A stretch of DNA of 22,553 bases from a virus: positions 1-22,553 of IMG/VR virus record IMGVR_UViG_3300020370_000303. One strand, 5' to 3'. The translations under genes and the position numbers were made by a program. This document shows positions 5,152-20,659 of this stretch, piece after piece; the first letter of the stretch is position 1; each line of letters begins with the position of its first letter. Under the pieces are notes generated by a model, which had not been told where the DNA came from, did not search any database, and saw only the letters and a list, made by a program, of their open reading frames with translations.

Positions 5152-5741
5152 TTAACGAAAATAATATAGTTGATTTGTTTCCTACACCTTTGTATGTTGC
5201 AACTGATGTTCTAACAAAAGAAGAGAATCAAGAATTAATAGATCATATTATTTCAATACAAGATAAACAAGTTGGAAGGGGAAAAGAACTTTGGCACTCT
5301 GGGATAGGAAGTCCTAAAAATTCTTTTGGATTGGATATAAAAGATAAGCAATTTGATCTTATACTTAAACGTGCTCATTACCATGTGGAGCAATATACTA
5401 AGACTATAAAAGCTGATGTACGCATGGATTACATGAATAAAGAATGGTGGTGGAATCTTTATGAAGGACATAATTATCAAGAATATCATAATCATGTTCC
5501 TCACTTGTTTAGTGGAGTATATTATGCTAAAGTACCACCAGGATCTTCAGATATAAAATTTAGACATCCTGCATGGAGTCTTTATATCCCACATCAAAAT
5601 CAAACTGCATATAATAGTGATGCTTGTAATTTTAAACTTTATGAAAGAGTTATGATAATTTTTCCATCTAGTCTTTTACATTGTGTTGCTTGTGGTCAAA
5701 ACACTGAACCCAGAATATCTTTCTCATTTAATTATGGTTAA
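5148..5741 (+). CDS. 2OG-Fe(II) oxygenase-like protein (HxH variant)
   Basis: The 197-residue protein fits the putative 2OG-Fe(II) oxygenase family widespread in cyanophages (TIGR02466-like). An N-terminal LFPTPLY element typical of that family is followed by H114 and H116 in YHNHVPHLFSGVYYAKVP. H178 lies in FPSSLLHCV and R189 in PRISFSFN. The first ligand pair is HxH, which I believe is usual for this family but should be checked. The gene at 1899 shares the same two motif blocks. It sits between the GDP-fucose genes and the fucosyltransferase with tight coupling on the 5' side, so a role in modifying a sugar or a glycosylated protein is possible but unproven. Confidence 0.8.
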   Translation: MINENNIVDLFPTPLYVATDVLTKEENQELIDHIISIQDKQVGRGKELWHSGIGSPKNSFGLDIKDKQFDLILKRAHYHVEQYTKTIKADVRMDYMNKEWWWNLYEGHNYQEYHNHVPHLFSGVYYAKVPPGSSDIKFRHPAWSLYIPHQNQTAYNSDACNFKLYERVMIIFPSSLLHCVACGQNTEPRISFSFNYG

Positions 5742-5743
5742 CT

Positions 5744-7404: not shown

Positions 7405-8162
7405 AATTTTTAATAGTTGGAGATACTATAATTGATGAGGATATTTTTCTTATTGCATCAGGTATTTCTTTGGAGACTCCTACATTAAAAACTACTTATG
7501 ATACAAATAAAGTTAAGTATGGTGGTGCAGCTAATGTCGCAAGACAATTGGCAGATTATGATTTAGATGTTACTTTTTTAACTTCTGTATCAAAAGAACA
7601 TATTAATCCTATTAGTTCTACTGGAGCAAAGGTTCTTAATTTTTATCAAGGTAAAAACAATACTAAAACTAGGTATTGGGTATCTCATGGAGATTCTACA
7701 TACAAATATCTTCAAATTAATAATGTAAATGATGAGAATGTTCATCCCTTAATTGATGTGGATTTATCTAAGTATGATATAGTTGCATTTTCCGATTATA
7801 GATGTGGGTTAATAACAGAATCATTTATTGATACATGTACAAATCTTGAATCTACTGAAACATATGCATCATCTCAGATATCAAGTAGAGAATCAAATTA
7901 TTCTTTATATGAGGATGTAGATTATATTGTATGTAATGAAAAAGAATCTAAGTCAGTAGATAGGGATTATGATATCTGTATAACTAAAGGTAGTAAAGGA
8001 TGTTCTTTGAATGGGACTGAATACCCTGTATTTGAACTTGAGAATATTGTCAGTACAATGGGAGCAGGAGATGCTTTCTATGCTGCTTTTTTGGCATCTG
8101 GAGATCCAGAGTTTGCGAATGCAGAAGCTTGTAATTTTATAGAAAGTCAGACGTATGTATAA
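7389..8162 (+). CDS. PfkB-family sugar kinase, HldE-N (RfaE domain I)-like
   Basis: The 257-residue protein has the PfkB/ribokinase signatures in the order seen in the heptose-7-phosphate kinase domain of HldE. These are IVGDTIIDEDIF (9-20), KYGGAANVARQL (43-54), FSDYRCGL (134-141, matching the SDYxKG block of HldE with Lys replaced by Cys), VCNEKE (181-186), ITKGSKG and the catalytic GAGDAF (225-230, D228). It is shorter than typical HldE-N domains of about 310 residues, so loops are trimmed. It overlaps the RpiB::HldE-C gene by 16 bases; together they carry both halves of HldE split and rearranged. A kinase for another sugar phosphate remains possible. Confidence 0.88.
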   Translation: MREDLKFLIVGDTIIDEDIFLIASGISLETPTLKTTYDTNKVKYGGAANVARQLADYDLDVTFLTSVSKEHINPISSTGAKVLNFYQGKNNTKTRYWVSHGDSTYKYLQINNVNDENVHPLIDVDLSKYDIVAFSDYRCGLITESFIDTCTNLESTETYASSQISSRESNYSLYEDVDYIVCNEKESKSVDRDYDICITKGSKGCSLNGTEYPVFELENIVSTMGAGDAFYAAFLASGDPEFANAEACNFIESQTYV

Positions 8163-8853
8163 AGCGATTGAAGATTGTCTGTTACTTAATAAAAGTATCA
8201 AAGATAATAATTTAGTCAAACTTACTTGGGGTAATGCTAGTGTTCTTTCTGAAGATGGGAAGTACATTACTATAAAACCTTCTGGTGTTGATTTCTCTAA
8301 ACTGTCTTACAGTGAAATATGCATCATAGAACTTTATACAGGAAAACAAATATCAGGAAAGAAACCATCTGTAGATACTGCTATTCATTTAGAAATATAC
8401 AAAGCATTTCCAGAGATAAAATCAATAATTCATAGTCATTCAAAGTTTGCTACCTCTTGGGCACAAGCAATGAAACCTATTCCTATATTAGGAACTACTC
8501 ATGCTGATTATTTTTTATCAGATATTCCTTTAGCAAAAGAACTTGAGATTAATGATTTAGAACAATATGAAAAAAGTCTTGGACAATCTGTAGTGGATTA
8601 CTTTCAAGAACAAAAAATTAATCCATTGAACATTCCTGCAATTCTTCTTCCTAAACATGGTGTTATGGTTTTCTCAGATTCACCTGACAGAACTCTAGAG
8701 TGTGCTATAGTATTAGAAGAGATTGCTGAAATGGCATACTATACTACTAATATAAATCGTAGTGTAACAGATGAATTTGATGAGTTCACTGAAGAACTCT
8801 ATACTAAACATTTTGAAAGAAAAAATGGAATCAACAAATACTACGGACAATAG
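8155..8853 (+). CDS. class II aldolase family, AraD-like L-ribulose-5-phosphate 4-epimerase
   Basis: The 232-residue protein matches AraD, which interconverts L-ribulose-5-P and D-xylulose-5-P with a divalent metal. Metal ligands are H93 and H95 in IIHSHS and H168 in PKHGV. The catalytic D118 lies in GTTHADYF and a C-terminal tyrosine pair precedes YGQ (Y229), the positions known for E. coli AraD. The C-terminal KYYGQ ending and the HADYF block favour AraD over fuculose-phosphate aldolase FucA, which belongs to the same superfamily. It overlaps the kinase gene by 8 bases and the cupin gene by 29. In this operon it might feed or drain the pentose-phosphate pool, or act on a related ketose phosphate. 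Confidence 0.88.
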   Translation: MYKAIEDCLLLNKSIKDNNLVKLTWGNASVLSEDGKYITIKPSGVDFSKLSYSEICIIELYTGKQISGKKPSVDTAIHLEIYKAFPEIKSIIHSHSKFATSWAQAMKPIPILGTTHADYFLSDIPLAKELEINDLEQYEKSLGQSVVDYFQEQKINPLNIPAILLPKHGVMVFSDSPDRTLECAIVLEEIAEMAYYTTNINRSVTDEFDEFTEELYTKHFERKNGINKYYGQ

Positions 8854-9247
8854 TTACGGTAGACAAGAATTACCTCCTGTCTTCAAATGCGAAGAGAAGA
8901 GAGATAAGTACTGGGGTTACATTACTACAGTGTTTGCTACTGATGACTTTACTTTGAAAGAAGTCTTCATGAAAGCTGGCACTCAGAGTAGTATGGAGTA
9001 TCATGTAAGAAAGGATGAATATTATTATATTCAATCTGGTAAACTTAAAGTGGGAATGCGAATAGGTCGTGCGAAAAACAAATCCCTTATCCTTGAAAAG
9101 GGAGATGTGTTTCATATTCCACCAGGTTTAATGCATATGCGTATTGCATTAGAGGACACTATTGTGATAGAATGGTCAAACAAGGACGATGATACCGATT
9201 CAAACATCGTTGAAGACGGTAAAACTTATACTTTTATTGAAGACTAA
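8825..9247 (+). CDS. cupin protein, sugar-phosphate isomerase type II-like
   Basis: This 140-residue single-domain cupin has motif 1 in GTQSSMEYHVRKDEYYYIQSG (52-72) with H60 and E65, and motif 2 in KGDVFHIPPGLMHMRI (92-107) with H104. Small cupins of this kind are found next to sugar-nucleotide genes and often resemble the C-terminal isomerase domain of type II phosphomannose isomerases. A sugar-phosphate isomerase or epimerase, or a sensor, is plausible; the reaction is not known. I chose the ATG at 8825, which leaves a 29-base overlap with the AraD-like gene; longer in-frame starts go deeper into it. The start of talC overlaps its stop by one base (TAATG). Confidence 0.8.
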   Translation: MESTNTTDNSYGRQELPPVFKCEEKRDKYWGYITTVFATDDFTLKEVFMKAGTQSSMEYHVRKDEYYYIQSGKLKVGMRIGRAKNKSLILEKGDVFHIPPGLMHMRIALEDTIVIEWSNKDDDTDSNIVEDGKTYTFIED

Positions 9248-9918
9248 TGAATTATCTTTTTGCTGATACTGCCAATCTTGATGAGATTATAAAGGCAAAT
9301 GATATGGGTGTTATACAAGGTGTAACTACAAACCCATCAATTATTGCGAAAGAACCAACAGGAAGTTTTGATAGTCTTATTGAAAAACTTGCTAGGTACT
9401 GTGGGAAAGAAGGTTTATCTTTAAGTGTAGAAGTTTTTGCTGAAGGTTACGAACCTATGGTAGAACAAGCTTCTGAGATATATGATAAATTTGTTGGTTA
9501 CTGTCCAGAACTATATGTAAAGATTCCTGTTAGTGTTGATGGTCTAAAAGCAATCAAAACTTGTAGTAAAGCAGGAGTTAAAATTAATGCTACTATTTGT
9601 TATAGTGAACAACAATTAATACATTGTGCTTCTGCGGGTGCAAAGTATGTTTCATTATTCTACTGTCGTTTGAAACAACATGGTGGAGACGTAAAGAGAG
9701 CACTTAGAAGAACTAAACAATACATCAGAGAGAATGGTTTAGATACACAGATCATTGCAGGTAGTATTCGTACACAACAAGATGTATGTGATGCTTGGGA
9801 TTATGGTGCAGATATTGTTACCACAGGTTTACCTGTAATAAATGAGATGATTCATCATCCTAAAACAAACGAATCTTATGATGGGTTTATGAAGGACTTT
9901 GCTGCATGGATAAAATAA
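9247..9918 (+). CDS. talC: TalC-type transaldolase / fructose-6-phosphate aldolase family
   Basis: The 223-residue protein belongs to the small transaldolase family. It has FADTANLDEI (5-14), GVTTNPSIIAK (25-35), the Schiff-base lysine K92 in LYVKIP, INATICYSEQQ (113-123) and QIIAGSIR (168-175). Phage TalC proteins have been shown to act as transaldolases and are standard host-like metabolic genes of cyanophages. Here the segment after AGAKYVS reads LFYCRLKQHGGD, whereas typical members read PFVGR, so this copy looks divergent. It sits inside the glycan operon. A transaldolase can make sedoheptulose-7-P, the entry metabolite for heptose synthesis, which suits its neighbours. Confidence 0.9.
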   Translation: MNYLFADTANLDEIIKANDMGVIQGVTTNPSIIAKEPTGSFDSLIEKLARYCGKEGLSLSVEVFAEGYEPMVEQASEIYDKFVGYCPELYVKIPVSVDGLKAIKTCSKAGVKINATICYSEQQLIHCASAGAKYVSLFYCRLKQHGGDVKRALRRTKQYIRENGLDTQIIAGSIRTQQDVCDAWDYGADIVTTGLPVINEMIHHPKTNESYDGFMKDFAAWIK

Positions 9919-10238
9919 AAACCTATGTAGTTGATATAGATAATACCATTTGTACGCAAACATTTGGCGATTATTCTAAAGCAAAACCTTATCAAGATCG
10001 AATTAATAAAATTAATGATCTATATGATAAAGGGCATAAGATAATATATTTCACAGCAAGGGGTATGGGTAGAACTAATGATGATCAAGTTTTATCCTAT
10101 GCTTTTTGTTATGAAGAAACACATTACCAATTGACGGATTGGGGATGTAAATTTCATAGACTTATGTTAGGTAAACCTTTTGCTGATCATTATATTGATG
10201 ATAAAGCAATTTCAGATGGAGATTTTTTTAAAGACTAA
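9906..10238 (+). CDS. small HAD-superfamily phosphatase of polysaccharide clusters
   Basis: The 110-residue protein is a minimal cap-less HAD phosphatase. Motif I is VVDIDNTIC with nucleophile D10 and D12; motif II is IIYFTARG (T50). K90 lies in GKPFADHYIDDKA, whose DD (98-99) is motif IV. Such short HAD proteins are common in capsule and LPS clusters, where they probably dephosphorylate sugar phosphates. In this context it could remove a phosphate from a sugar bisphosphate between kinase and nucleotidyltransferase, the GmhB step, although true GmhB proteins are longer and carry a zinc-binding loop not seen here. It overlaps talC by 13 bases and abuts the FkbM gene. Confidence 0.85.
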   Translation: MDKIKTYVVDIDNTICTQTFGDYSKAKPYQDRINKINDLYDKGHKIIYFTARGMGRTNDDQVLSYAFCYEETHYQLTDWGCKFHRLMLGKPFADHYIDDKAISDGDFFKD

Positions 10239-10924
10239 TGACTACAAAATATGAACCATCATCTATAGATAATTTCCGTAAATTTATATCATATAAATTT
10301 AAAGATCCAGATGAAGTATCTGTTATATTTGATGTTGGATCTCTTCATTGTTTAGAATCTATAGAATTATCTAAAGTATATAAAAATGCACGTATCTATG
10401 CTTTTGAAGCAAATCCAGATTCTTATCAAGTTTGTTTAGAAAATACAAAAGATTATGATAATATAACTGTAATTAATAAAGCAGTACATGATCATGATGG
10501 AACATGTATTTTTAATGCAATTGATGCAGATAAAACTGAAACACCTTGGTTTGATGGTAACAGAGGTGCATCTAGTATTTTCAAATCGAATGGTGCTTAT
10601 AATCACATAGAAAAGTATATTCAAAAAGAAATAGAGGTTCCTTGCATACAGTTAGGAACCTTTTGTAAAGAGAATAGTATTAACAACGTAGATGTAATGT
10701 GGATGGATCTTCAAGGTGCAGAACTTATTGCTTTAGAATCTATGGGAAAAGAATTATTAAGTACAGTACAAGTTATTCATACAGAACTTGAAACAACTCC
10801 AATCTATAAAAATCAATGTTTATTCCAAGATGTAAATCATTTTTTAAAAAATAATAATATGTATAGAGCAGAGGGAAATTATGCAGCTCAGTTTGGGCAA
10901 AACTTTATCTTTGTAAGAAAATGA
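10238..10924 (+). CDS. FkbM-family SAM-dependent methyltransferase
   Basis: The 228-residue protein fits the FkbM family of class I methyltransferases, which usually O-methylate sugars. Motif I is IFDVGSLHCLES (30-41), the acidic end of strand 2 is YAFEANPDSY (54-63), and a later strand carries the DVMWMDLQGAEL block typical of the family. The start overlaps the HAD gene by one base (TAATG), and its end overlaps the next gene by four bases. O-methylation of a glycan is the likely role, judged from family and neighbours; the position methylated cannot be inferred. Confidence 0.88.
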   Translation: MTTKYEPSSIDNFRKFISYKFKDPDEVSVIFDVGSLHCLESIELSKVYKNARIYAFEANPDSYQVCLENTKDYDNITVINKAVHDHDGTCIFNAIDADKTETPWFDGNRGASSIFKSNGAYNHIEKYIQKEIEVPCIQLGTFCKENSINNVDVMWMDLQGAELIALESMGKELLSTVQVIHTELETTPIYKNQCLFQDVNHFLKNNNMYRAEGNYAAQFGQNFIFVRK

Positions 10925-11652
10925 TGAAAGTATACTTTGGACAACCTTGGGGTGGTTTAGGAGACAATCTTCAATTCACAACTCTACCAAAACTATTCTC
11001 TGAAAAGGGAGTAGATTTTTTCATATCTCAACATAACACTTATAGAAATCCTGAAATATATGAATTTTGTTGGGCAAATAATCCTTATGTGAAAGGTATA
11101 GTTAGTAATGTAGCAAACGTTGGTTCGTGTGCTCCAGATCTTCAGAAAGGAAGAACTGATAATATTGTATCTGCTGCAGAGATACGTCATGGATTTTTAG
11201 GATCTGGTAGATATCCTGAGATATATTATGATGCTAAAACTTTAGATGAATATAAAGATAAAACTATCGTTGATTTATCTGCACACACTTTGTTAAAAAA
11301 TAATGTTAACGAATTTTATGATGCAGACAAATTGTTTTCCCTTGTAGGAGAAAGAGTTCCAGAGGATGCTTTATTCGTTTCATTCAAAAAAGTAAATTCT
11401 CTTTCTTTATCTGGAGGGTTTCCTTTTGAGAATAATGAATTAGTAGTTGAAAATATCTTTCAGTATGCTAATATAATTAATAGTGCAAAGAGTTACTATT
11501 GTCTTTATTCTGGAGGAAACTCTATGGCAGCTGCTGTTAAATATAAAGAGCAGTCCAAAGTAGAATTAAATTGTTTCCTTCATGGGACAGTTCAAGAACA
11601 TAAAGACAAAGGATTCTTTATTTTCGATAATGTAAATTACATTGAGGTTTAA
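10921..11652 (+). CDS. GT9-like (heptosyltransferase-type) protein, short
   Basis: The 243-residue protein starts with GQPWGGLGDNLQFTTLPKLF (8-27), the GxGDxL...TxxL signature at the N-terminus of GT9 glycosyltransferases such as ADP-heptose:LPS heptosyltransferases. Near the C-terminus YCLYSGGNSMAAAVK resembles the donor-domain block where GT9 enzymes have a Gly/His-rich loop and AAxL. It is clearly shorter than the roughly 340-residue norm, so the C-terminal Rossmann domain appears trimmed. Whether it transfers heptose is uncertain. Its position behind NDP-heptose-type genes supports that reading, but the call rests mainly on the N-terminal block. Confidence 0.6.
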   Translation: MMKVYFGQPWGGLGDNLQFTTLPKLFSEKGVDFFISQHNTYRNPEIYEFCWANNPYVKGIVSNVANVGSCAPDLQKGRTDNIVSAAEIRHGFLGSGRYPEIYYDAKTLDEYKDKTIVDLSAHTLLKNNVNEFYDADKLFSLVGERVPEDALFVSFKKVNSLSLSGGFPFENNELVVENIFQYANIINSAKSYYCLYSGGNSMAAAVKYKEQSKVELNCFLHGTVQEHKDKGFFIFDNVNYIEV

Positions 11653-11653
11653 G

Positions 11654-12349
11654 ATGAAAATTTTGATACTAACTATCGCAACAAACAAATACATTCAATT
11701 TGTAGAAAGGTTGTATGACAATATTGCTGATAACTTTTTAAAAGGACATGATATGGAGTGTCTTTTGTTTACAGACCATGATGTAGAAGCATCAAGTAAT
11801 GTTAAAGTGTCTAAGATAGAACATGAAGATTGGCCAATGCCAACTCTAAAGAGATATAATTATTTTGTAAAAGAAAAAGAATATATTTCTCAATTTGATT
11901 ATTGTTATTATTTTGATATTGATATGGGAATTGTTGAAGATGTAGGAGATGAAGTGTTAAGTGATTTGGTGGGAACAATGCATCCATATCAAACATTTTC
12001 TCCTAAAGAACAAAGAACATATGATCGTAATCCAAATTGTTTGGCATGTGTAAAACCTGGTGAAGAAGGTAATTATTATTATGCAGGTGGTTTTAATGGT
12101 GGTTCTACAGAAAAATTTTTAGAAATGTCAGAAGTTATTGCTGATCGTGTTACTAAAGATCTTGAAAAAGGTATTATTGCTTTGTGGCATGATGAATCAC
12201 ATATGAATCGTTATATGATAGATAACCCTCCTTCATTAAGTTTGACACCTTCTTATTGTTTCGCAGAAGAACAAATGCAAAATCCAGACTATCCTTTTAA
12301 ACCAAAAATTATTGCTTTAAAGAAAAATCATTCTGAACTTAGAACATGA
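11654..12349 (+). CDS. GT6 family glycosyltransferase (histo-blood-group ABO-like)
   Basis: GT6 enzymes transfer alpha-1,3 Gal or GalNAc, in the ABO group onto Fuc-alpha-1,2-Gal acceptors. The 231-residue product has the family blocks in order: KILILTIATNKY at the N-terminus, WPMPTLKRY, FDIDMGI with an intact metal-binding DxD (88-90), YYAGGFNGGS (142-151), LWHDESHMNRY (177-187) and LTPSYCF. Many bacterial GT6 proteins carry NxN at the DxD site, so a phage copy with DxD is notable; a GT6 has been reported from P-SSM2. The start at ATG 11654 follows the previous stop directly; a TTG at 11642 is in frame but overlaps. The downstream gene is coupled by ATGA. Confidence 0.92.
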   Translation: MKILILTIATNKYIQFVERLYDNIADNFLKGHDMECLLFTDHDVEASSNVKVSKIEHEDWPMPTLKRYNYFVKEKEYISQFDYCYYFDIDMGIVEDVGDEVLSDLVGTMHPYQTFSPKEQRTYDRNPNCLACVKPGEEGNYYYAGGFNGGSTEKFLEMSEVIADRVTKDLEKGIIALWHDESHMNRYMIDNPPSLSLTPSYCFAEEQMQNPDYPFKPKIIALKKNHSELRT

Positions 12350-12990
12350 AATTGAAACTTACTGATCTTCCAGTAGTTTATATCAACCTTGATGAACAGG
12401 AAGATAGAAAGGTAACTCTAGAAAAAAATTTAAAAAATCTAGGATTTAAAAATATTATTAGAGTATCTGGATTTAAAGATCCAAACGCAAATAGAGGATG
12501 TGCATATTCTCATGCACTTGCTTTAGAAGAAGTAGATGCTCCTTTTATAGTATTGGAGGATGATAGTGTGCCTCTTAATTTTATTGATGAAATAGAAATA
12601 CCAGATGAGACAGATGCCCTTTATCTTGGAATATCATCTTGGGGACGTATGAATGGACACTCTGGTCCTTGTGTACAATGGGAGTATGCAGATCAAAGAA
12701 CTGATTTGGTTAGAGTATGGAATATGTTAGCTGCACATGCAATTCTATATCTTAATTCGGAGTATGTAGATCTATGTAAAAGAATTGCATATCATGGATA
12801 TTTAATTTCAGATCATCATGATATTGGGTTTGCTGATATTCAAAAATATTATGATGTGTATGCGTTTGATAATCCAATGTTTTATCAGACAAGTTCTAAT
12901 GGAACTGATCAACCATTATCATCATACCCTAGTGTTAGAATAATGGGATATGATGAAAGATTTTGGCTACCTCTAGAAGTTAAAGAATGA
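12346..12990 (+). CDS. GT25-like glycosyltransferase
   Basis: The 214-residue protein resembles family GT25 (LPS glycosyltransferases such as LgtB/LpsA). Its blocks are VYINLDEQEDR (11-21), NRGCAYSHALAL (49-60) and FIVLEDD (67-73). GT25 enzymes are typically galactosyl- or glucosyltransferases acting on lipooligosaccharide cores. The EDD motif is the probable metal and donor site. Both ends are coupled to neighbours by ATGA overlaps. A second GT25-like gene closes the operon at 17303, so this cluster has two. Donor and acceptor cannot be read from sequence. Confidence 0.85.
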   Translation: MKLKLTDLPVVYINLDEQEDRKVTLEKNLKNLGFKNIIRVSGFKDPNANRGCAYSHALALEEVDAPFIVLEDDSVPLNFIDEIEIPDETDALYLGISSWGRMNGHSGPCVQWEYADQRTDLVRVWNMLAAHAILYLNSEYVDLCKRIAYHGYLISDHHDIGFADIQKYYDVYAFDNPMFYQTSSNGTDQPLSSYPSVRIMGYDERFWLPLEVKE

Positions 12991-13907
12991 AGATAGTTAT
13001 TTGGGGACATAAATTACATTCTCATACTCATTCTTATATTCATTATGGATATTGGAGAGCAGCAGATTACTTAGGACATGAAGTATACTGGTATGATGAT
13101 AAAGATGCTGTGCATGATGTAGATTTCTCAAATTCTATTTTTATAACAGAACATCAGGTTTGTAAAAATATACCTTTAAGAAAAGATTGTAAATATTTTA
13201 TTCATAACTCTGATGAACCATTTAAATATGAAAAAAGACAAAAGTATGTTGGATATAAAGTTTATAATTTTGTACACGATTCAAAGCACTGGCATTATGG
13301 AGATAGTTATGTCTGGCCAAGTGTAGAAAACATAGGAGGAAGTTTTTATGAACATCCTACTAGAACTATTGTAACTAAATGGGCAACTGATTTACTACCC
13401 TCAGAAATTGATAAATGTCCAGTAGATCCTTATGATGAAGAAAAGGAAAATATATTTTTTGTAGGATCTATGCAAGGAGAGAACATAAGAAGGTTTGCTG
13501 ATATTGTAAAATCAAAAGGAAAGAACTTTGTAAATGTTGGTGGATATAGTGGAAGATATTCTTTGTATGACGGAAATCCTCCTGATATAAACCAGAACAT
13601 TGCAATGGTTAGAGACTCTTATATATCTTTTGATATTAGAGAGAAACCTTTTTTTGATATGGGTAAATATTATCCTTGTCGAATATTTAAAAGTATTAGT
13701 TATGGAAAATGGTGTGGAAGTAATATGCCAGCAATAAAAGATTTGTTTGGAGATCATGTTACATTTGACAATAACCTAGATACCCTCTATGATAGAGTTG
13801 TAGAAGATTATAAATCTTGTACAGAACAGAAGATGCGTGAAGCAATGAACTTCGTCCGTGATGAACATACATATGTTAATAGACTAAATGATCTACTAAA
13901 GTTATGA
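12987..13907 (+). CDS. putative GT-B glycosyltransferase
   Basis: The 306-residue protein begins with a Rossmann-like strand (MKIVIWGHKLHSHTH) and a YWRAADYLGHEVYW helix/strand, as in GT-B enzymes. Its second half has IFFVGSMQGEN (about 156-166) and a YYPCRIFKSISYGKWCGSN block (about 227-245). That block resembles the region where group 1 and related glycosyltransferases select the donor and keep a dynamic C-terminal arm. The protein is rich in His and Tyr. No CAZy family can be named confidently. The ATGA coupling at both ends places it firmly within the glycan operon. Confidence 0.65.
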   Translation: MKIVIWGHKLHSHTHSYIHYGYWRAADYLGHEVYWYDDKDAVHDVDFSNSIFITEHQVCKNIPLRKDCKYFIHNSDEPFKYEKRQKYVGYKVYNFVHDSKHWHYGDSYVWPSVENIGGSFYEHPTRTIVTKWATDLLPSEIDKCPVDPYDEEKENIFFVGSMQGENIRRFADIVKSKGKNFVNVGGYSGRYSLYDGNPPDINQNIAMVRDSYISFDIREKPFFDMGKYYPCRIFKSISYGKWCGSNMPAIKDLFGDHVTFDNNLDTLYDRVVEDYKSCTEQKMREAMNFVRDEHTYVNRLNDLLKL

Positions 13908-14845
13908 TTAAAAAACTAAGAAGAACTAAAATAGAACCAAAACCAGTAATACCACCAAAACCAAAGTTGAGTGTTGTAACTGGTGGTGCAGGATTTATCG
14001 GATCAAATCTTGTAGAAAGATTACTAGAGAGAGGAGATCAAGTTGTAGTTATAGATAACGAATCTGCAAATACTCATGATGAAGTTTATTGGAATCCTAA
14101 TGCTATGAATGTAAAGGGGGATATAACTGATTTTACTCTTTTAAAAAATGCATGTACAAATGCGGATTGCATTTATCATATGGCAGCAGATATTTCAATT
14201 CAATATTCTATAGAGAATCCAACTGAATCATATAAAAATAATGTTATTGGTACATTAAATGTTTTAGAAGTAGCAAGGGTATTAGGTATTAAGAAGGTGG
14301 TTTTTTCTTCTACTGCAGCAATTTATGGCAGTACATCTGAACCATGTGTAGAGACTGATAGACCTGATCCTTTAAATCCATATTCAGTATCTAAACTTGC
14401 AGGAGAAAACCTGATGAAGATGTATAATGATTTGTATGGTATGCAAACTGTATCTCTTAGGTATTTCAATGTATATGGTCCTCGTCAAGCACACAAGGGA
14501 CAGTACGCTCCTGTTATAGGAATATTTCAAAAACAAAAATTTGAAGGTAAACCTTTAACTATCATTGGAGATGGAAACCAAACAAGAGATTTTATTCATG
14601 TTGCTGATGTAGCACATGCGAACATGATGGTTGCTGAGAGTGATGTAGTTGGTGTATTTAATGTTGGATCTGGTGTAGAGTATTCAGTTAATCAAATTGC
14701 AATGCTTACAAATAATTCTCATGGTACAACTACAATCCCTTCGAGAGAAGGAGAAGCAAGAAGAAGTCTTTCTGATAACACTAAACTTAAAGATATAGGT
14801 TGGCAACCTAGAATAGGATTGGAGGCATGGATCGCTAAACAATGA
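13904..14845 (+). CDS. NAD-dependent nucleotide-sugar epimerase, GalE / UDP-GlcNAc 4-epimerase type
   Basis: The 313-residue extended SDR protein has TGGAGFIGSN (26-35), the catalytic SSTAAIYG (135-142) with S136, YSVSK (160-164) with Y160 and K164, and LRYFNVYGPRQ, a block usual in UDP-sugar 4-epimerases. It also has GDGNQTRDFIHVADVA. It would supply UDP-Gal or UDP-GalNAc from the gluco epimer, the donors used by GT6 enzymes. The first 22 residues form an unusual basic, proline-rich extension (EPKPVIPPKPK) before the nucleotide-binding fold. An alternative is a 4,6-dehydratase or a heptose epimerase, but the block pattern favours a C4 epimerase. Confidence 0.85.
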   Translation: MIKKLRRTKIEPKPVIPPKPKLSVVTGGAGFIGSNLVERLLERGDQVVVIDNESANTHDEVYWNPNAMNVKGDITDFTLLKNACTNADCIYHMAADISIQYSIENPTESYKNNVIGTLNVLEVARVLGIKKVVFSSTAAIYGSTSEPCVETDRPDPLNPYSVSKLAGENLMKMYNDLYGMQTVSLRYFNVYGPRQAHKGQYAPVIGIFQKQKFEGKPLTIIGDGNQTRDFIHVADVAHANMMVAESDVVGVFNVGSGVEYSVNQIAMLTNNSHGTTTIPSREGEARRSLSDNTKLKDIGWQPRIGLEAWIAKQ

Positions 14846-15882
14846 CTAAAGTATTACATTTATCCCACCATTATGGTTGTCTTAAAGATCACCAATATGT
14901 GTGCGATAAACTTGGATTGGATTTAACAAACAAACTTTCTATATGGAATGATATTATAAAGAGAGATGTCTATCGTATTACCAAAGCGATAGCAGACTCT
15001 ACTTGGAAAGAACATAAAGATTATTTTAATTCTTTTGATTTTATTATTACATCTGATACCGCACCTCTATCAAGAATATTCTTAGAGAATATTGATGAGT
15101 TTAAAGGACAGCTAATCGTATGGGTATGTAATAGATTTAATTATGAGATGCATGATGATATTGGTTATCATAACCTTATGAATGAATCTGTAGGTAAAGA
15201 TAATGTAAAAATAATTCCATATACAAAGTTTGAAAGTATGTGGGCTGAAGCATATAAGGTTAATTTGACCGAAGATGTAATTCGCCCTATCGGAGTTTCG
15301 ATTGATAAACCACTCTCTGAAAGCGAAGATTTAAACTTGATTGGTTTTGGTGGAGATTATGGGGATGAATTAAAAGGAGGGGATGTATTAGTTTCTAGGT
15401 ATCATAATGATACTTTATGGCAAGACTCTGTAAAGATGATGGAACATTTTAATCTATCAGCAGATCCATGTAAGTATAGAGGATATAAAGGATTAGTAGA
15501 ACTTGCTAAAAAATATGAAGCATATTTTATTTTACCAGAACAGTATTCTAAATTTGCTGCTTTTGAATTAATGAATATAGGTTTACCTGTTATTCTTCCA
15601 TCAGAAGAGTTTCTTCTTCATCTTTCATCTGCTAAAAATCACTCAACAGGTAATAACTATTGGTTTGGTAGTGGATTATATAAAGATACTACAAACGTTT
15701 GTGAATGGTATAATGAATACTATGATCAGTTCGCTCTTTATATTGATGATTTTGAAGATATTCCAGAAACATTTAAAATAGTAAAGGAGCATAAAAAGAA
15801 AATTCGTGGTATAATGAAGAAGTGTGCCAAAGAACACCAGAGTAAGACCTTAGATCAGTGGAGGAAAATTTATAATGTCTAA
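14842..15882 (+). CDS. putative GT-B glycosyltransferase
   Basis: The 346-residue protein has an N-terminal KVLHLSHHYGCLKD block and a C-terminal block EQYSKFAAFELMNIGLPVILPS (quoted key part: AFELMNIGLPVILPS). The C-terminal block matches the donor-site region of GT-B enzymes, where a Glu-containing segment precedes a Gly-x-Pro-Val-Ile strand. Length fits a two-domain GT-B enzyme. A precise family cannot be named. It is coupled by ATGA to the epimerase gene and overlaps the next methyltransferase gene by 8 bases. It probably adds one sugar of the same glycan. Confidence 0.65.
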   Translation: MTKVLHLSHHYGCLKDHQYVCDKLGLDLTNKLSIWNDIIKRDVYRITKAIADSTWKEHKDYFNSFDFIITSDTAPLSRIFLENIDEFKGQLIVWVCNRFNYEMHDDIGYHNLMNESVGKDNVKIIPYTKFESMWAEAYKVNLTEDVIRPIGVSIDKPLSESEDLNLIGFGGDYGDELKGGDVLVSRYHNDTLWQDSVKMMEHFNLSADPCKYRGYKGLVELAKKYEAYFILPEQYSKFAAFELMNIGLPVILPSEEFLLHLSSAKNHSTGNNYWFGSGLYKDTTNVCEWYNEYYDQFALYIDDFEDIPETFKIVKEHKKKIRGIMKKCAKEHQSKTLDQWRKIYNV

Positions 15883-16594
15883 TGCCTTAGAAACATATAA
15901 AAATTATATGGATAATGCTCATTGGAATTACACAACCAAAGAGCAATTTGAACAGTATTATGGCAGAGTACCAAAGTTCAGATACGATACAATGAAGTAT
16001 TGTTGGGATCAGGTTGTAAAATATAATTTTAAAACTATTGTAGAATTGGGTACTACAAGAAGTTTTGTTGATGGTAAGTTTCCTGGTTGCAATGAAGATG
16101 ATACAAAATACTGGCAACCAAATGTTCCTGCTATATGGGATTGGTCTGCAGGATGTTTTACTCGTGTTATTGGCGAAATGGTTCAAGGAACTGATATAGA
16201 GTTTATAACAGTAGATTTAAATCCATTACATATTGCAAGAAGTAAAGTAGTATCAGAAGGTCTTTCTAATATAGAGTATCATATAATGTCATCTGAAGAT
16301 TTCTTATCTTCTGGAGAAGGACAAATAGATTTTCTTTATATGGATACAGGAGATATGCATCCTATAGAACCAACAGCAGAGTTGCATTTAAGAGAAGCAG
16401 AGTTGATTGCAGGGTGTGATATAATAAGTAAGAATGGTGTAATACTTATTGATGATGTAAGAAATACAACACCTAAGATTGTTGATAGTGATGAATCTGA
16501 TTATGGTAAAGCAAAGTATTCGATTCCTTTTCTTTTGAGAAATGGTTTTGATTTAGTTATGGATGAATATCAGGTGGTGCTTCAAAAGAAATGA
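15875..16594 (+). CDS. class I SAM-dependent methyltransferase (Methyltransf_24-like)
   Basis: The 239-residue protein has an aromatic N-terminal region, then motif I-like TIVELGTTRSF (54-64). The acidic strand is EFITVDLNPLHIARSK, followed by IDFLYMDTGD and NGVILIDDVRN, as in Methyltransf_24-type enzymes often seen in glycan clusters. A small-molecule or sugar O-methyltransferase role is likely. It differs in fold detail from the FkbM enzyme at 10238, so the operon carries two unrelated methyltransferases. The end is coupled by ATGA to the next glycosyltransferase gene. Confidence 0.8.
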   Translation: MSNALETYKNYMDNAHWNYTTKEQFEQYYGRVPKFRYDTMKYCWDQVVKYNFKTIVELGTTRSFVDGKFPGCNEDDTKYWQPNVPAIWDWSAGCFTRVIGEMVQGTDIEFITVDLNPLHIARSKVVSEGLSNIEYHIMSSEDFLSSGEGQIDFLYMDTGDMHPIEPTAELHLREAELIAGCDIISKNGVILIDDVRNTTPKIVDSDESDYGKAKYSIPFLLRNGFDLVMDEYQVVLQKK

Positions 16595-17310
16595 AAGTAA
16601 AAATAATCTCCCCAGTAGTAAACATTCCTTCGTTTCTTGATATACAGATATCAAAGTTCAAAGAAAATCTTCTTTCTGATTTTGAACTTATATGTATTGA
16701 TGATTCAAAACAAAAAGGTTTAGATCAACAATTCAGAAATGTTTGTTCTGAACATGATGATGTAGCAACATGGTTTAAAAATACAAGACCTCCTGTTTCA
16801 GGTCCTTCAATGGGTCATGCAAATGCTATTCAGTTTGCATTGGATAATATTGTATATACATCTTGTTTAAATGATATTGTATTTCTTGTAGACAGTGATA
16901 TATTCTTAATGGAGAAGATAGATTTAATTGAGTTTATGAAAGATAAGGAGATTGCTTCTTTCATGCAGAGTAGAGAGAATGTTGATTACCTTTGGCCAGG
17001 TCTTACTATATTAAATATGCCTGAGATAAAGAAATATGATTCTGATATTAAATTTTTTCCTGGTTGGTTTGGTGGACAAATGTGCGATACTGGAGGAGAG
17101 TCTCATAATTTTATTTTTGAAAACAACATTCAACCTCATCCAATAAATTGTAAGTTTGAGGGAGAATATAGAGGAGAAACTTTAGTAAACATGGAAACTT
17201 TTATGGATGAAAAGTTCCTTCATTTTAGAGGTGGAACTATATGGGATAATAAAGTTGATGTCTTTAAACAAAAAATTGAAATCTTAAATAACATTCTTGC
17301 ACATGGATAA
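16591..17310 (+). CDS. putative GT-A (GT2-like) glycosyltransferase
   Basis: The 239-residue protein has a GT-A layout. A beta strand at the N-terminus (KVKIISPVVNI) is followed by FELICIDDSKQKG (31-43), SMGHANAIQFAL (73-84, an alternation helix) and IVFLVDSDIF (96-105) with the metal-binding DSD at 101-103. A later segment, HFRGGT, may supply the third metal ligand. It looks like a divergent GT2-type enzyme. It overlaps the last gene of the operon by 8 bases. Donor and acceptor are unknown. Confidence 0.7.
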   Translation: MKVKIISPVVNIPSFLDIQISKFKENLLSDFELICIDDSKQKGLDQQFRNVCSEHDDVATWFKNTRPPVSGPSMGHANAIQFALDNIVYTSCLNDIVFLVDSDIFLMEKIDLIEFMKDKEIASFMQSRENVDYLWPGLTILNMPEIKKYDSDIKFFPGWFGGQMCDTGGESHNFIFENNIQPHPINCKFEGEYRGETLVNMETFMDEKFLHFRGGTIWDNKVDVFKQKIEILNNILAHG

Positions 17311-18088
17311 AAACAAAGCATTATATAAGATAAAGGGTTTACCCCCAATATATTGTATTAACCTTGATGGAAAACCTGATAGGTGGAAATACATGGAGGA
17401 TCAGTTTAAGTATTGGGAGATTACTGATTACAAGAGAGTATCAGCATATGATGGTAGAGAAGATGATTTAAGTGATATATTAAAAGGAAGATACCCTGAT
17501 AACATGAGTTCTGGTGAGGTTGGATGTACAACATCACATTTGAAAGCACTCAAAGAATTTTTAGAGACTGATGCTCCTTGTGCATTGATCATGGAAGATG
17601 ATTGTGATTTAGGACCGATATCTCATTGGGCATTTACATGGAGAGACTTCTTTGCAAAGATACCATATTGTTATGATGTAGTTCAGTTAGCAATTATCAA
17701 CCCTGCACAGATAGCAGTTCAACTTCATAGAAGATTTGTAAATGATTTTTCTACTGCTTGTTATTTGATTACTAGACACCATGCAGAGAAATTGATTAGA
17801 TTACATTGTAGAGGAGATAAGTATAAACTTGATAATGGATCTAAACCTAGAGCAGTAGCAGACGATCTAATTTACAATTCTGGTATGACTTATGCGATAC
17901 CTTTACTTCTATACAGAATTGAATTAGGTTCAGATATACATGATGTACACGTAGATGTATTCCATAAAAGTAGTCATGCAGGATTATGGCAGTTCTGGAG
18001 AAATCAAGCTTCTGATCAAGATTGGGATGCTCTATTTGAGTTTAATGCCTACTATGGAACACTCCCACCAGGCTACGAAGGTAAGTAA
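17303..18088 (+). CDS. GT25-like glycosyltransferase, last gene of the operon
   Basis: The 261-residue protein has YCINLDGKPDR (17-27), GEVGCTTSHLKAL (71-83) and ALIMEDDCD (94-102), the three blocks of family GT25. It also has VADDLIY, which matches the conserved D-D segment that closes the active site. The ATG at 17303 is preferred; an upstream TTG at 17297 is also in frame. It is longer and more canonical than the GT25-like protein at 12346. After its stop there are about 125 non-coding bases before the hli genes, holding a strong promoter but no evident terminator hairpin. Confidence 0.88.
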   Translation: MDKNKALYKIKGLPPIYCINLDGKPDRWKYMEDQFKYWEITDYKRVSAYDGREDDLSDILKGRYPDNMSSGEVGCTTSHLKALKEFLETDAPCALIMEDDCDLGPISHWAFTWRDFFAKIPYCYDVVQLAIINPAQIAVQLHRRFVNDFSTACYLITRHHAEKLIRLHCRGDKYKLDNGSKPRAVADDLIYNSGMTYAIPLLLYRIELGSDIHDVHVDVFHKSSHAGLWQFWRNQASDQDWDALFEFNAYYGTLPPGYEGK

Positions 18089-18157: not shown

Positions 18158-18186
18158 TTGACAAAATTTTATATTTGCTATATAAT
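18158..18186 (+). promoter_or_regulatory. consensus sigma70 promoter for the hli cluster
   Basis: TTGACA (18158-18163) and TATAAT (18181-18186) are both perfect and spaced by 17 bp. Expected transcription starts near 18193, about 20 bases before the ATG at 18214. It is identical in design to the promoter at 2582. Confidence 0.85.
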
Positions 18187-18213: not shown

Positions 18214-18411
18214 ATGACTGTTACAACAGAATCAGGTGGAAGACAAAATGCTTTCCCAACTGAAACTCGTCCTTACATTGATGAGAGTGCTTCTTACGAA
18301 GGATATCCACAAAATGCTGAAAAAGTAAATGGTCGTTGGGCAATGATCGGATTCGTAGCACTTCTAGGTGCTTATGCAACAACAGGACAAATTATTCCAG
18401 GTATATTCTAA
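18214..18411 (+). CDS. hli: high-light-inducible protein (Hli)
   Basis: Hli proteins are single-helix relatives of plant light-harvesting proteins; they bind chlorophyll and carotenoid and protect photosystem II in the thylakoid membrane. The 65-residue protein has a polar N-terminal half and the signature EKVNGRWAMIGF (36-47) with E36, N39 and R41. One transmembrane helix follows, with the ending TTGQIIPGIF. It is the longest of five consecutive hli genes and the first behind the promoter at 18158. Its stop overlaps the next start as TAATG. Cyanophage hli genes are thought to sustain photosynthesis during infection. Confidence 0.93.
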   Translation: MTVTTESGGRQNAFPTETRPYIDESASYEGYPQNAEKVNGRWAMIGFVALLGAYATTGQIIPGIF

Positions 18412-18524
18412 TGAACTACTGGAAGAACGCAGAGTTGATCAATGGTCGTCTCGCAATGCTCGGTTTAGTAATCGGCACAATCAATTATGGTCTATTCGGA
18501 TGGATAGCACCAGGTTTCTTCTAA
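18411..18524 (+). CDS. hli: short high-light-inducible protein (Hli)
   Basis: The 37-residue protein begins at an ATG overlapping the previous stop (TAATG) and is almost all core motif: AELINGRLAMLG with E8, N11 and R13, the canonical chlorophyll-binding pattern. A short membrane helix and the ending WIAPGFF follow. The C-terminus differs from the TTGQIIPG ending of its neighbours, resembling the form with a trailing aromatic patch. It is a genuine hli gene by motif, although very short. Confidence 0.85.
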   Translation: MNYWKNAELINGRLAMLGLVIGTINYGLFGWIAPGFF

Positions 18525-18561
18525 AGATGAAACTGACTACTCAATTCACAACACAAAAAAC

Positions 18562-18566
18562 AGGAG
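18562..18566 (+). promoter_or_regulatory. Shine-Dalgarno site AGGAG for the third hli gene
   Basis: AGGAG lies 8 bases before the ATG at 18575 and supports that start over the in-frame ATG at 18527, which lacks a ribosome binding site. Confidence 0.55.
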
Positions 18567-18574
18567 CAAAACTC

Positions 18575-18682
18575 ATGACACCAGAAGCAGAAAGATTTAA
18601 TGGATGGGCAGCAATGCTAGGTTTCGTAGCAGCAGTCGGTGCATACGCAACAACAGGACAAATCATTCCAGGTATTTTCTAA
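18575..18682 (+). CDS. hli: short high-light-inducible protein (Hli), NGW variant
   Basis: The 35-residue protein (51 residues if the ATG at 18527 is used) has AERFNGWAAMLGF followed by a membrane helix and TTGQIIPGIF. E6 and N9 of the pigment-binding motif are present but the Arg is replaced by Trp (W11), a variant I recall in picocyanobacterial and phage Hli proteins. The AGGAG at 18562-18566 favours the short form. The last 40 bases closely repeat the 3' end of the first hli gene at the DNA level, suggesting duplication. The stop overlaps the next start as TAATG. Confidence 0.85.
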   Translation: MTPEAERFNGWAAMLGFVAAVGAYATTGQIIPGIF

Positions 18683-18804
18683 TGTCAGATAAAGAATCAA
18701 AAACAGTAGCAGAAAAACTTAATGGTAGACTAGCAATGCTAGGTATCATCGCAGGATTAGGTGCTTACCTAACAACAGGACAAATCATTCCAGGCTTTGT
18801 ATAA
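18682..18804 (+). CDS. hli: short high-light-inducible protein (Hli)
   Basis: The 40-residue protein starts in a TAATG overlap. After a charged N-terminus (MSDKESKTVAEK) it has AEKLNGRLAMLG with E11, N14 and R16 intact, one membrane helix and the ending TTGQIIPGFV. It is a canonical single-helix Hli protein. The stop again overlaps the next start. Confidence 0.9.
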   Translation: MSDKESKTVAEKLNGRLAMLGIIAGLGAYLTTGQIIPGFV

Positions 18805-18917
18805 TGAACAACAAAGACATTTTTGAAAGAGCAATCGGTAGACCTGCAATGATGGCATTTGTGCTATTCAGTGGCATCTACTTAGCAACAGGTCAACTTA
18901 TACCAGGTATCGTATAA
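18804..18917 (+). CDS. hli: degenerate high-light-inducible-like protein
   Basis: The 37-residue protein has FERAIGRPAMMAF. E8, G12, R13, A15 and M16 of the Hli signature remain, but the Asn that binds chlorophyll is replaced by Ile (I11). A membrane helix and ATGQLIPGIV follow, the same ending as the other copies. It is probably a diverged member of the array that may bind fewer pigments. It overlaps both neighbours by TAATG junctions. Confidence 0.78.
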   Translation: MNNKDIFERAIGRPAMMAFVLFSGIYLATGQLIPGIV

Positions 18918-19006
18918 TGAAAAGCGTACCAGTACCATTTAAAGTTGTACCATATATCTTCATGGTGGCAGTTATTTCTGCTATTCCTACAGGTATAATG
19001 GTCTAA
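18917..19006 (+). CDS. 29-residue membrane micro-protein after the hli array
   Basis: This 29-codon frame starts in a TAATG overlap with the fifth hli gene. The product has a basic, proline-containing N-terminus (MKSVPVPFKV) and one hydrophobic helix. It lacks the Hli signature. The exact overlap continues the coupling pattern of the array, so it is likely translated. It could be an eroded hli copy or a photosystem-like micro-protein; neither can be shown. Confidence 0.55.
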   Translation: MKSVPVPFKVVPYIFMVAVISAIPTGIMV

Positions 19007-19040
19007 GGTCTAATTTTTTTTCCTTTAAAACTTTACAAAA

Positions 19041-19047
19041 CTAAATA
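19041..19047 (+). promoter_or_regulatory. possible T4-like late promoter motif CTAAATA
   Basis: CTAAATA lies about 44 bases before the ATG at 19091, in the 84-base gap after the hli group. Cyanomyovirus late promoters have a similar core. The AT-rich setting makes chance matches common. Confidence 0.4.
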
Positions 19048-19090
19048 ATTATTCGTAACTTTAATTGCAAACCAACACAATAGGTAATAA

Positions 19091-19258
19091 ATGGGCGAAC
19101 TTATCGCAGAAAATACAATCTCACCCTTCATGACAATACTTTGGTGTTTTTACCCAGTGGCATTAGTGGTGGGATTGGAGTTATTTTTAAGAGCATCAGA
19201 TGATGACGATGATGATGAAGGTGGTGGAGTAATGACACCAGTATATCAAGGAGCATAA
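19091..19258 (+). CDS. small membrane protein with poly-Asp tail
   Basis: The 55-residue product has a hydrophobic segment at about residues 13-33, then an Asp6-Glu run (37-43), a glycine patch and a short tail. One membrane helix with a strongly acidic soluble tail suggests docking to a basic partner or complex. It is not recognised as any photosystem subunit with certainty, though its size and place beside hli genes suggest a thylakoid location. It starts the second small-protein group, after a possible late-type motif. The next micro-gene begins two bases after its stop. Confidence 0.65.
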   Translation: MGELIAENTISPFMTILWCFYPVALVVGLELFLRASDDDDDDEGGGVMTPVYQGA

Positions 19259-19260
19259 AC

Positions 19261-19335
19261 ATGATTTACACATTAACATTTGCATGTGCAGTAGCATTTA
19301 CTGCAGTTAACGGACTACCGTTCGTATTTTCGTAA
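19261..19335 (+). CDS. 24-residue hydrophobic micro-protein
   Basis: This 24-codon frame lies between two better-supported genes, two bases after the stop of one and 29 bases before the ATG of the next. The product is hydrophobic (MIYTLTFACAVAFTAV) and could span a membrane once. Its size matches the smallest known photosystem or cytochrome subunits, but no identity is recognised. Support is from packing and composition only. Confidence 0.45.
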   Translation: MIYTLTFACAVAFTAVNGLPFVFS

Positions 19336-19364
19336 AACTTAATAGCTGAGGAGTACAAGCTTAA

Positions 19365-19469
19365 ATGACCAAAAACTTTTTAAATATCCCACCTGCATGG
19401 ATGGGACTCGCAGAGTTCGCATTTTTCTTAGTAGTAGGAACTGCAGCAGGATCGGCAGGATTAATCTAA
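19365..19469 (+). CDS. 34-residue membrane micro-protein
   Basis: The frame starts at an ATG with GAGGAG 11 bases upstream (19348-19353) and ends in a TAATG overlap with the next gene. The product has a polar start with a PPAWMG turn, then a hydrophobic helix at about residues 14-30 ending in a glycine/alanine-rich stretch. It is plausible as a thylakoid or plasma-membrane micro-protein. Function is unknown. Confidence 0.6.
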   Translation: MTKNFLNIPPAWMGLAEFAFFLVVGTAAGSAGLI

Positions 19470-19825
19470 TGAATTATCACGATGTAATGGAAGCATACAA
19501 ACAACCAATATCAGTAAGATATATCCCAAGGATATTTGGTTGGATGTTTGCATTCTTTATACTTCTTGGAGTTCATTCCACAGCATATGCAATGGATAAA
19601 GAACCCGTCATCTGGGTACAAGTTCCACAATGGACAGATGATTGGGCAGTATGTGCAGTAGATATTCCAGACGCAGCATGTCATTGGTATATTGCAGAAG
19701 CAGATAATACATTTGGAGAAGGATTTGACTGGGAAACAGCACCTTGGTTCGATGCAAATGGTTTAAATGATGTATCAGCAATGCAAGCATCAACAGTAGT
19801 ACAGAGATTACAAGAGAAAAAATAA
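19469..19825 (+). CDS. secreted or lumenal Trp-rich protein with signal anchor, unknown
   Basis: The 118-residue protein has a basic region, then a hydrophobic segment at about residues 22-38 and a possible AYA cleavage site at 39-41. A roughly 77-residue exported domain follows, rich in Trp, Asp and Glu, with two cysteines (C62, C71) that could form a disulfide. It would sit in the periplasm or thylakoid lumen. A longer in-frame reading from 19397 is possible but would overlap the previous gene; the ATG at 19469 keeps the TAATG coupling seen throughout this cassette. No family is recognised. Lumenal electron-carrier or assembly roles are conceivable but unsupported. Confidence 0.7.
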   Translation: MNYHDVMEAYKQPISVRYIPRIFGWMFAFFILLGVHSTAYAMDKEPVIWVQVPQWTDDWAVCAVDIPDAACHWYIAEADNTFGEGFDWETAPWFDANGLNDVSAMQASTVVQRLQEKK

Positions 19826-19938
19826 TGAATCCATTTCAATTGAGAGAAGCACTTCAGATGTTTCTATTGTTCTTTTCGGGGACGGTTATAGTAACTGGGG
19901 TTGTCTTTTTTATGATGAGTGCTATGATAGATACATGA
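19825..19938 (+). CDS. 37-residue membrane micro-protein
   Basis: The frame starts in a TAATG overlap and ends in an ATGA overlap with the next gene. The product has a short polar start (MNPFQLREAL) and one hydrophobic helix rich in Phe, Val and Met. It is likely a single-pass membrane protein of the same cassette. No homologue is recognised. Confidence 0.6.
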   Translation: MNPFQLREALQMFLLFFSGTVIVTGVVFFMMSAMIDT

Positions 19939-20132
19939 CACTTCCATCTTTACAACATTTAATAAGGAAGTACTTTCGTCTTCCTCGTAAGAAATTATGG
20001 ATAGCTGCTTTGAAACTTCAAAGGTGGCCAGTAAACTGGTGGGATGAGAAATTAGAAGAGAAAAGAAATAAAGAAAAACTCCGTAAAGAAAAGGTAGAAA
20101 GTCTATATCCTAAGAAGAGTAAACGAACATAA
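19935..20132 (+). CDS. small, very basic hypothetical protein
   Basis: The 65-residue product is strongly basic, with many Lys and Arg residues (for example EEKRNKEKLRKEK) and a Trp-containing amphipathic middle (KLQRWPVNWWDEK). It is soluble or peripheral. The start overlaps the preceding stop by ATGA. The high charge suggests binding to nucleic acid or to an acidic partner, such as the poly-Asp membrane protein at 19091, but this is speculation. It is followed by the petF promoter. Confidence 0.6.
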   Translation: MTLPSLQHLIRKYFRLPRKKLWIAALKLQRWPVNWWDEKLEEKRNKEKLRKEKVESLYPKKSKRT

Positions 20133-20186: not shown

Positions 20187-20477
20187 ATGGCAACAATAAC
20201 ATTAAAAACACCCGAAGGTGAAACTGAAACTTTTGAATGTGATGAAGACACTTTTATACTAGATGCACTAGAAGAAGCAGGTATTGATCATCCATATTCC
20301 TGTAGAGCAGGTGCATGTTCATCATGTGCTATGAAAATTGTAGAGGGATCTGTTAATCAGGAAGATCAATCTTTCCTAGAAGATGAACAAATGGAAGAAG
20401 GATTTGTGCTTACATGTGTAGCACTACCAGAATCTGATCTTACATTATTAACAGAGCAAGAGGAGAATATACTTTGA
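20187..20477 (+). CDS. petF: plant-type [2Fe-2S] ferredoxin
   Basis: The 96-residue protein is a soluble electron carrier of the PetF type. The cluster ligands are in [13 protein letters not shown] (three cysteines of the CxxxxCxxC pattern) and TCVAL (the fourth). The acidic surface (many Asp/Glu) fits docking to host reductases. Cyanophage ferredoxins of this length are known and have been shown to deliver electrons to enzymes such as bilin reductases and sulfite reductase. Its own sigma70 promoter and the neighbouring hli genes fit a role in redirecting photosynthetic electrons. The stop overlaps the next start as TTGA. Confidence 0.96.
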
Positions 20478-20656
20478 ACGACGAAGATAGACACGTAAAC
20501 GATCTATGGGAAGACATGGATCGTCTAAATGCCTTATATGAAGAACTCATGTGGGATACTGATGATGTTTTAGAGTTCTCTGCTGATTATGATAACGATC
20601 AGATTATAATAAGAAATAGAACAAGAGAGATTGAAATAGAAGAAGGACTGAGATAA
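20474..20656 (+). CDS. small acidic hypothetical protein downstream of petF
   Basis: The 60-residue product is strongly acidic (Asp and Glu throughout, for example DYDNDQ and EIEIEEG) and has no membrane segment. The TTG at 20474 makes a TTGA overlap with the petF stop, like the junction at 1899; an internal ATG at 20517 is the alternative start. It is likely co-transcribed with petF. No family is recognised. Confidence 0.65.
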
Positions 20657-20659
20657 ATA
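20653..20659 (+). promoter_or_regulatory. T4-like late promoter motif ATAAATA
   Basis: ATAAATA (within GATAAATATT) matches the core of T4-type late promoters and lies 17 bases before the ATG at 20677, which starts a group with a structural-type gene. It overlaps the end of the previous gene. Confidence 0.55.

Follow-up and report, generated by a model that had tools for sequence, protein, structure and literature searches.

A hli-linked cassette of small, mostly single-helix proteins in T4-like cyanophages, with relatives in picocyanobacterial chromosomes and a possible role in photosynthesis

Many cyanophages carry Hlips. To our knowledge, the binding partners of these phage Hlips are not settled. 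In T4-like cyanophages, the stretch bounded by hli and psbA/psbD contains the gene clusters T4-GC 436-438, 554, 594 and 285 (Sullivan et al. 2010, PMC3037559). T4-GC 438 was counted among the host-like genes and named "carboxylesterase" (PMC3037559); it probably corresponds, by name match only, to PRO2575, "Core HL" in PMC3686209. Surveys file the "carboxylesterase" under carbon metabolism (e.g. PMC10452541). Host hli genes are induced in a light-dependent manner during P-HM2 infection (PMC5082946), and Psb34 (Ssl1498), a one-helix PSII assembly protein, competes with HliA/B on CP47 (PMC9458560).

We analysed an IMG/VR virus record over its full length of 22,553 bases, hereafter the window, to which all positions refer. 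It comes from a T4-like cyanophage whose closest relatives are the Prochlorococcus phages MED4-213, P-HM2 and P-HM1. We lean, if only modestly, towards the view that it carries an auxiliary cassette derived from the host, whose products, mostly membrane proteins with a single helix, would be expressed alongside Hlips and ferredoxin and would aid photosystem assembly, repair or photoprotection.

The cassette and its promoter

A five-gene hli array, assigned from sequence, occupies the + strand at 18214-18411, 18411-18524, 18527-18682, 18682-18804 and 18804-18917, its genes being joined through TAATG overlaps, except at the third gene. The fifth gene (18804-18917) is degenerate, FERAIGRPAMMAFVLFSG, yet matches phrog_178 and is, judged by its sequence, a divergent true Hli.

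Behind this array the sequence-only reading had placed seven small frames of 24-118 residues. All seven were recovered on translation as consecutive + strand frames at 18917-20132, encoding 29, 55, 24, 34, 118, 37 and 65 aa (A to G), with TAATG at the hli/A, D/E and E/F junctions, ATGA at F/G, and a purine-rich Shine-Dalgarno-like stretch ahead of C and of D. Most frames had been credited with one helix, and a single hydrophobic segment is present in six of the seven (best 19-residue Kyte-Doolittle mean 1.6-2.3), G having none. In A (29 aa, 18917-19006) the helix follows a PVPxKVVPYIF motif. B (55 aa, 19091-19258; phrog_7843, T4-GC 437) carries the poly-Asp tail that had been noticed: its helix leads into DDDDDDEGGGVMTPVYQGA, with D6 and then EGGGVMTPVYQGA. 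C (24 aa, 19261-19335) consists of one helix and a C-terminal NGLPFVFS; D (34 aa, 19365-19469; phrog_17067, T4-GC 554/594) contains the helix EFxFFxxxGxxAGxxGLI. The signal anchor and Trp-rich domain ascribed to one frame are those of E (118 aa, 19469-19825; T4-GC 438), where an n-region, termed the N-module below, and a hydrophobic helix are followed by a signal-peptidase-like site, AYA|M, and a Trp-rich domain of about 70 aa. F (37 aa, 19825-19938) has one helix and a C-terminal MMSAMIDT, and G (65 aa, 19935-20132), with its motif LPRKKLWIAALKLQRWPV, is the very basic protein (pI 10.6). The [2Fe-2S] ferredoxin gene petF (20187-20477, + strand; Fer2 4.6e-26, phrog_844) lies 3' of the cassette and is followed by a DUF7191 gene.

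A perfect sigma70-type promoter, TTGACA-N17-TATAAT (18158-18186, + strand, 12/12 match), stands 28 bases 5' of the first hli, ahead of array and cassette alike. A match to at least 11/12 positions stands in the same place, ahead of the first hli, in 55/62 viral loci; among random 110-mers the figure is 7/186. By consensus match, this is a putative host-type (early/middle) rather than late promoter. The late-type motif ATAAATA occurs on the + strand of the window only at 20653 (20653-20659) and 21205, just 5' of genes at 20677 and 21235; the first copy lies after the hli-cassette-petF unit and before the next genes. Since the sigma70-type promoter precedes hli and late motifs come only after petF, the cassette would group with hli and petF and not with the structural genes.

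Two side observations concern these signals. ATAAATA is strongly depleted in the window (3 copies on the two strands together, where shuffles average 17.4). A second perfect TTGACA-N17-TATAAT (2582-2610, + strand) is found at a small gene (2599-2844) upstream of a large block of sugar-nucleotide, glycosyltransferase-like and methyltransferase-like genes (3061-18088), within which lies a TalC-like transaldolase gene (9247-9918; all these identities were assigned by eye).

An overlapping run of small one-helix proteins resembles the architecture of lysis cassettes, and one could picture holin-, antiholin- or spanin-like proteins that disrupt the envelope, the more so as the start of E is signal-anchor-like and G is basic. 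The promoter held in common with hli and the downstream position of the late-type motifs speak against such a function. So do the neighbours listed for the cassette, which include neither a lysozyme nor an amidase, and the fact that A, B, D and E have relatives on host chromosomes, where E is widespread. We regard a lysis cassette as very improbable; holin/lysis or virion roles are disfavoured.

Coding evidence and recurrence in phages

In viral contigs, 195 stretches with a relative of B and 496 with a relative of E were confirmed, of which 80 of 195 and 80 of 496 were kept. These B and E loci also yielded relatives of A, C, D and F, and relatives of G were identified in 28 viral loci of their own; across dozens of contigs, related frames stand in conserved order. 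For A to F, the frames covered by the test, pN/pS was 0.47 (A; pN<pS in 252/254 pairs), 0.39 (B; 453/453), 0.35 (C; 163/164), 0.52 (D; 421/423), 0.31 (E; 511/511) and 0.59 (F; 176/180), the values being uncorrected and the pairs not independent; the alignments of A, C and F held 26, 19 and 26 rows. From these sequence comparisons we conclude that the seven frames are genuine genes, A-F by virtue of purifying selection and G by virtue of its conservation.

It is hardly credible, then, that they are chance open frames which are never translated. The frames are short, and A, C, F and G are without annotation or family matches (A and C lack annotation in P-HM2, and D does so in several phages); but sequence, start position and order are conserved across many contigs and pN falls below pS in almost all pairs, a codon-level signature of selection that refutes the notion for A-F, while for G the case rests on the 28 loci. 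Codon-level evidence, promoter type and host relatives together argue against both untranslated frames and virion or lysis proteins.

The cassette keeps constant company. Among 93 viral B loci with sufficient flanking sequence, picked by similarity to the window and with some contigs counted twice, hli is present within the 900 nt 5' of B in 93/93, whereas the genes downstream vary (D in 88/93, E in 66/93, F in 44/93 and C in 22/93; A is nearby in 38/93). The tie to photosynthesis that had been proposed thus finds support in an hli array preceding the cassette in every informative phage locus and in the common sigma70-type promoter. The link of the cassette to Hlips is strong.

Gene order is frequently B-D-E(-F), and A-B-C-D-E-F in close relatives of the window. 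Three loci (L355-L357) show hli-A-B-C-D-G-F followed by a heme-oxygenase-like gene and then E; in two others (L349, L360) G adjoins E and the N-terminal module of E. Because the members recur in such reshuffled arrangements, all seven belong to one exchange pool. The sequence-only reading had imagined that the proteins might build a complex of their own or modify an existing one; a reshuffled cassette whose members come and go is at least as easily explained by separate accessory proteins as by a single stoichiometric complex.

In P-HM1, P-HM2, MED4-213 and P-SSM4, the cassette genes sit between hli and psbA/psbD, a stretch that in the first three also contains ho1. As petF directly follows the cassette in the window, and related clusters in P-SSM5 and P-SSM7, the products might instead be regulators or assembly factors of ferredoxin or cyclic electron flow, and not partners of Hlips. 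We consider this improbable: petF is missing beside the cassette in P-HM1, P-HM2, MED4-213 and P-SSM4, whereas hli is there in all 93 loci.

As to RNA elements, a manA RNA (RF01745) lies immediately 3' of petF in P-SSM7 (L003 8159-8352), and PhotoRC-II is found 5' of psbA in P-SSM7 and P-HM2. Candidates in the window itself were rejected as sub-threshold chance matches.

Relatives in host chromosomes

Four of the frames (A, B, D and E) are represented by relatives on the chromosomes of marine picocyanobacteria, as befits host-derived auxiliary genes. In a search of the 201 genomes of the MIT 9302 family that was restricted to A-D and F, matches were obtained for B in 184/201 (many via the tail only), D in 62/201 and A in 10/201; C and F had none in these genomes. 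The E domain was confirmed in 381 genome stretches, the best 80 of 381 all being titled Prochlorococcus, with the reservation that one locus of this host search (L165) looks like a phage contig. Within the phylum, E occurs in 28/292 genomes, all of 1.6-2.9 Mb and often with two copies. In an unrooted tree of 72 columns, limited to phage and Prochlorococcus forms, the E domains split into a phage group and a Prochlorococcus group (99/95 support); the sampled phage lineage is therefore no recent acquisition from the sampled hosts.

Linkage to hli is seen in hosts as well. Among the best-scoring loci, related strains not having been removed, hli lies beside host relatives of B in 12/34, of D in 4/30 and of A in 2/15, compared with 2/280 host 3-kb windows. 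Two host loci (L248 and L291) have the phage-like order hli-B-D-hli; A lies near hli-D-B in L328, and hli-D-B recurs in L294-L297, L305 and L308. Numerous copies of host D have no hli nearby, and none of the ten host E loci has hli beside the gene. A gene neighbourhood can reflect shared regulation or location in an island without any physical link. Even so, the proposed photosynthesis tie is strengthened here: since at least four of the genes have host copies, and three of them often stand beside hli, the cassette probably helps the virus tune photosynthesis.

The same data bear on a quite different function, in which independent small membrane proteins act on host enzymes, transport or signalling, hli being a mere neighbour in the same expression slot. 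A cassette that is reshuffled and whose members come and go would suit such takeover effectors, C and F look phage-restricted, and E in MIT 9302 adjoins pheT (identified by eye) and not photosynthesis genes. What makes us judge this rather unlikely is that relatives of A, B and D are enriched beside hli in hosts, where there is no need of a phage expression slot, and that within the phylum E relatives occur only in small genomes. We retain the photosynthetic reading as the preferred one.

Several features of the host loci deserve mention in their own right. Five loci (L245 227-361, L246 247-378, L247 234-368, L320 and L321) contain a second family of one-helix proteins of about 44 aa, which end in a DDDDQDGG tail and are encoded on the strand opposite host B, about 1.2 kb away. 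Host D genes adjoin a signal-peptide protein of about 132-141 aa in L265 and L271, and peroxiredoxin-like genes in L265 and L290. As the host relatives of A are about 35 aa long, the Yfr6/Yfr14 peptides of Prochlorococcus were considered as relatives; they were set apart by description, the published account placing the Yfr6 peptide with another gene group. No Rfam element was found near the host A loci.

Protein E and the proposed role

Phage E proteins start with an N-module, YHDVMExYKxPxSxRYIPRIF, which precedes the helix, an AxA-type site in most copies, and an invariant-rich domain with many Trp and two invariant Cys (C62 and C71 in the window protein). Other phages have a short start, e.g. 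MIRRIF, in place of the N-module. In S-TIM4 and P-TIM40 (L158 4680-4814; L162 3980-4132) the gene encodes the N-module and helix only and ends at or just after an AxA-like site, as if a "signal peptide without cargo" had been retained as a gene. The N-module also has a free-standing relative in frame A (hhalign probability 86%, E 5e-6). Whether C or F might share an ancestor with D was likewise considered, and the idea set aside, the signal being weak or nil.

In phage records, E carries the annotation of the "carboxylesterase" of Prochlorococcus and cyanophages (T4-GC 438), and yet it shows no hydrolase feature. An alpha/beta hydrolase was rejected, as there is no GxSxG and no invariant Ser in alignments of 37 or 108 rows; neither phage nor host E, with a soluble domain of about 70 aa, matches Pfam or NCBIfam even at E 10. 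AlphaFold gave no confident fold (pLDDT 57.7 for the whole protein and 50.5 for the soluble domain, with 57 and 108 rows). The "carboxylesterase" is probably a small exported protein, its export being predicted; in the host forms export is unsure because the hydrophobic start is short. If E is such a protein and not a hydrolase, its placing under carbon metabolism should be revised. In phage ACG-2014d, the "carboxylesterase" (L157 3965-4207) probably has its true start 39 nt upstream, overlapping the end of psbD: an in-frame upstream ATG extends this copy of E by MIKSLFSFIFAAV.

The statement that none of the proteins is recognised holds in part. It stands for A, C, F and G, which have no convincing PHROG match, and for Pfam, where nothing matches A-G; it does not hold for B, D and E, which fall into phrog_7843, phrog_17067 and phrog_14182/1187, families whose function is unrecorded or doubtful, E being moreover catalogued as T4-GC 438. 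The suggested resemblance to photosystem or cytochrome micro-subunits did not extend to family membership. Pfam gave no match, and profiles of A-F hit no PDB chain significantly, subunits of PSI, PSII and cytochrome b6f included; the matches of B to PsaJ and PsbM, at E 1.2-1.4, were not significant. Very short families can escape searches of this kind (Pfam, NCBIfam, PDB profiles).

The biochemical role of the cassette in photosystem assembly, repair or photoprotection is one that we infer from sequence. One could envision that the proteins reach the infected cell's thylakoid membrane alongside the phage Hlips, where A, B, C, D and F would serve as one-helix accessory proteins and E would contribute an exported (lumenal) Trp-rich domain. 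Together with the Hlips, and in many phages also phage D1/D2, they might take part in building, repairing or photoprotecting photosystems and so keep electrons flowing while host synthesis shuts down. Likely docking elements would be the poly-Asp tail of B and the PxPxKxxPxIF module of A and of the N-module of E. More tentatively, and with some doubt, we speculate that marine picocyanobacteria and their phages share one set of one-helix Hlip partners (A, B, D and the exported E domain), that the PxPxKxxPxIF module is used either free (A) or as a signal anchor joined to an exported domain (E), and that the phage carries this set as a unit with which to remodel Hlip-photosystem complexes in the course of infection. 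The cassette names candidate Hlip partners which travel with hli in phages, three of them lying beside hli in hosts also, and which include genes of 24-37 aa skipped by annotation pipelines. The proposal is directly testable, since cultures exist of P-HM1, P-HM2 and their host MED4.

Among described systems, the Hlips themselves come closest in genetic setting: A-G resemble them in gene unit and host neighbourhood, and most of A-G are likewise one-helix proteins. Hlips carry the chlorophyll-binding NGRxAMxG, however, whereas in A-G the (E/N)xxNGRxAM(x)G motif of the Hlip/one-helix LHC superfamily is absent and no Hli profile of Pfam or PHROG is matched. As a small one-helix partner in the Hlip/CP47 system, Psb34 provides a working analogy, and an analogy only, for a protein that modulates Hlip binding to CP47; it shows that one-helix partners of this kind exist, although PDB-wide profile searches with A-F brought up no kinship to any chain. 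In our search of the literature, which included host gene names near hli, we found no study of A-G proteins and no report on their expression, localisation or interactions, nor a description of the host relatives of A, B and D or of their linkage to hli. The nearest counterparts remain the clusters of P-HM1, P-HM2, P-SSM4 and MED4-213, which occupy the same neighbourhood and share B (GC 437), E (GC 438) and D (GC 554/594); in the window, A, C, F and G are added, and petF, not psbA, follows. That T4-GC genes lie near hli was known. The cassette is now more fully defined, and our main new result is that four of its seven genes have relatives in marine picocyanobacteria, those of A, B and D often lying beside host hli.
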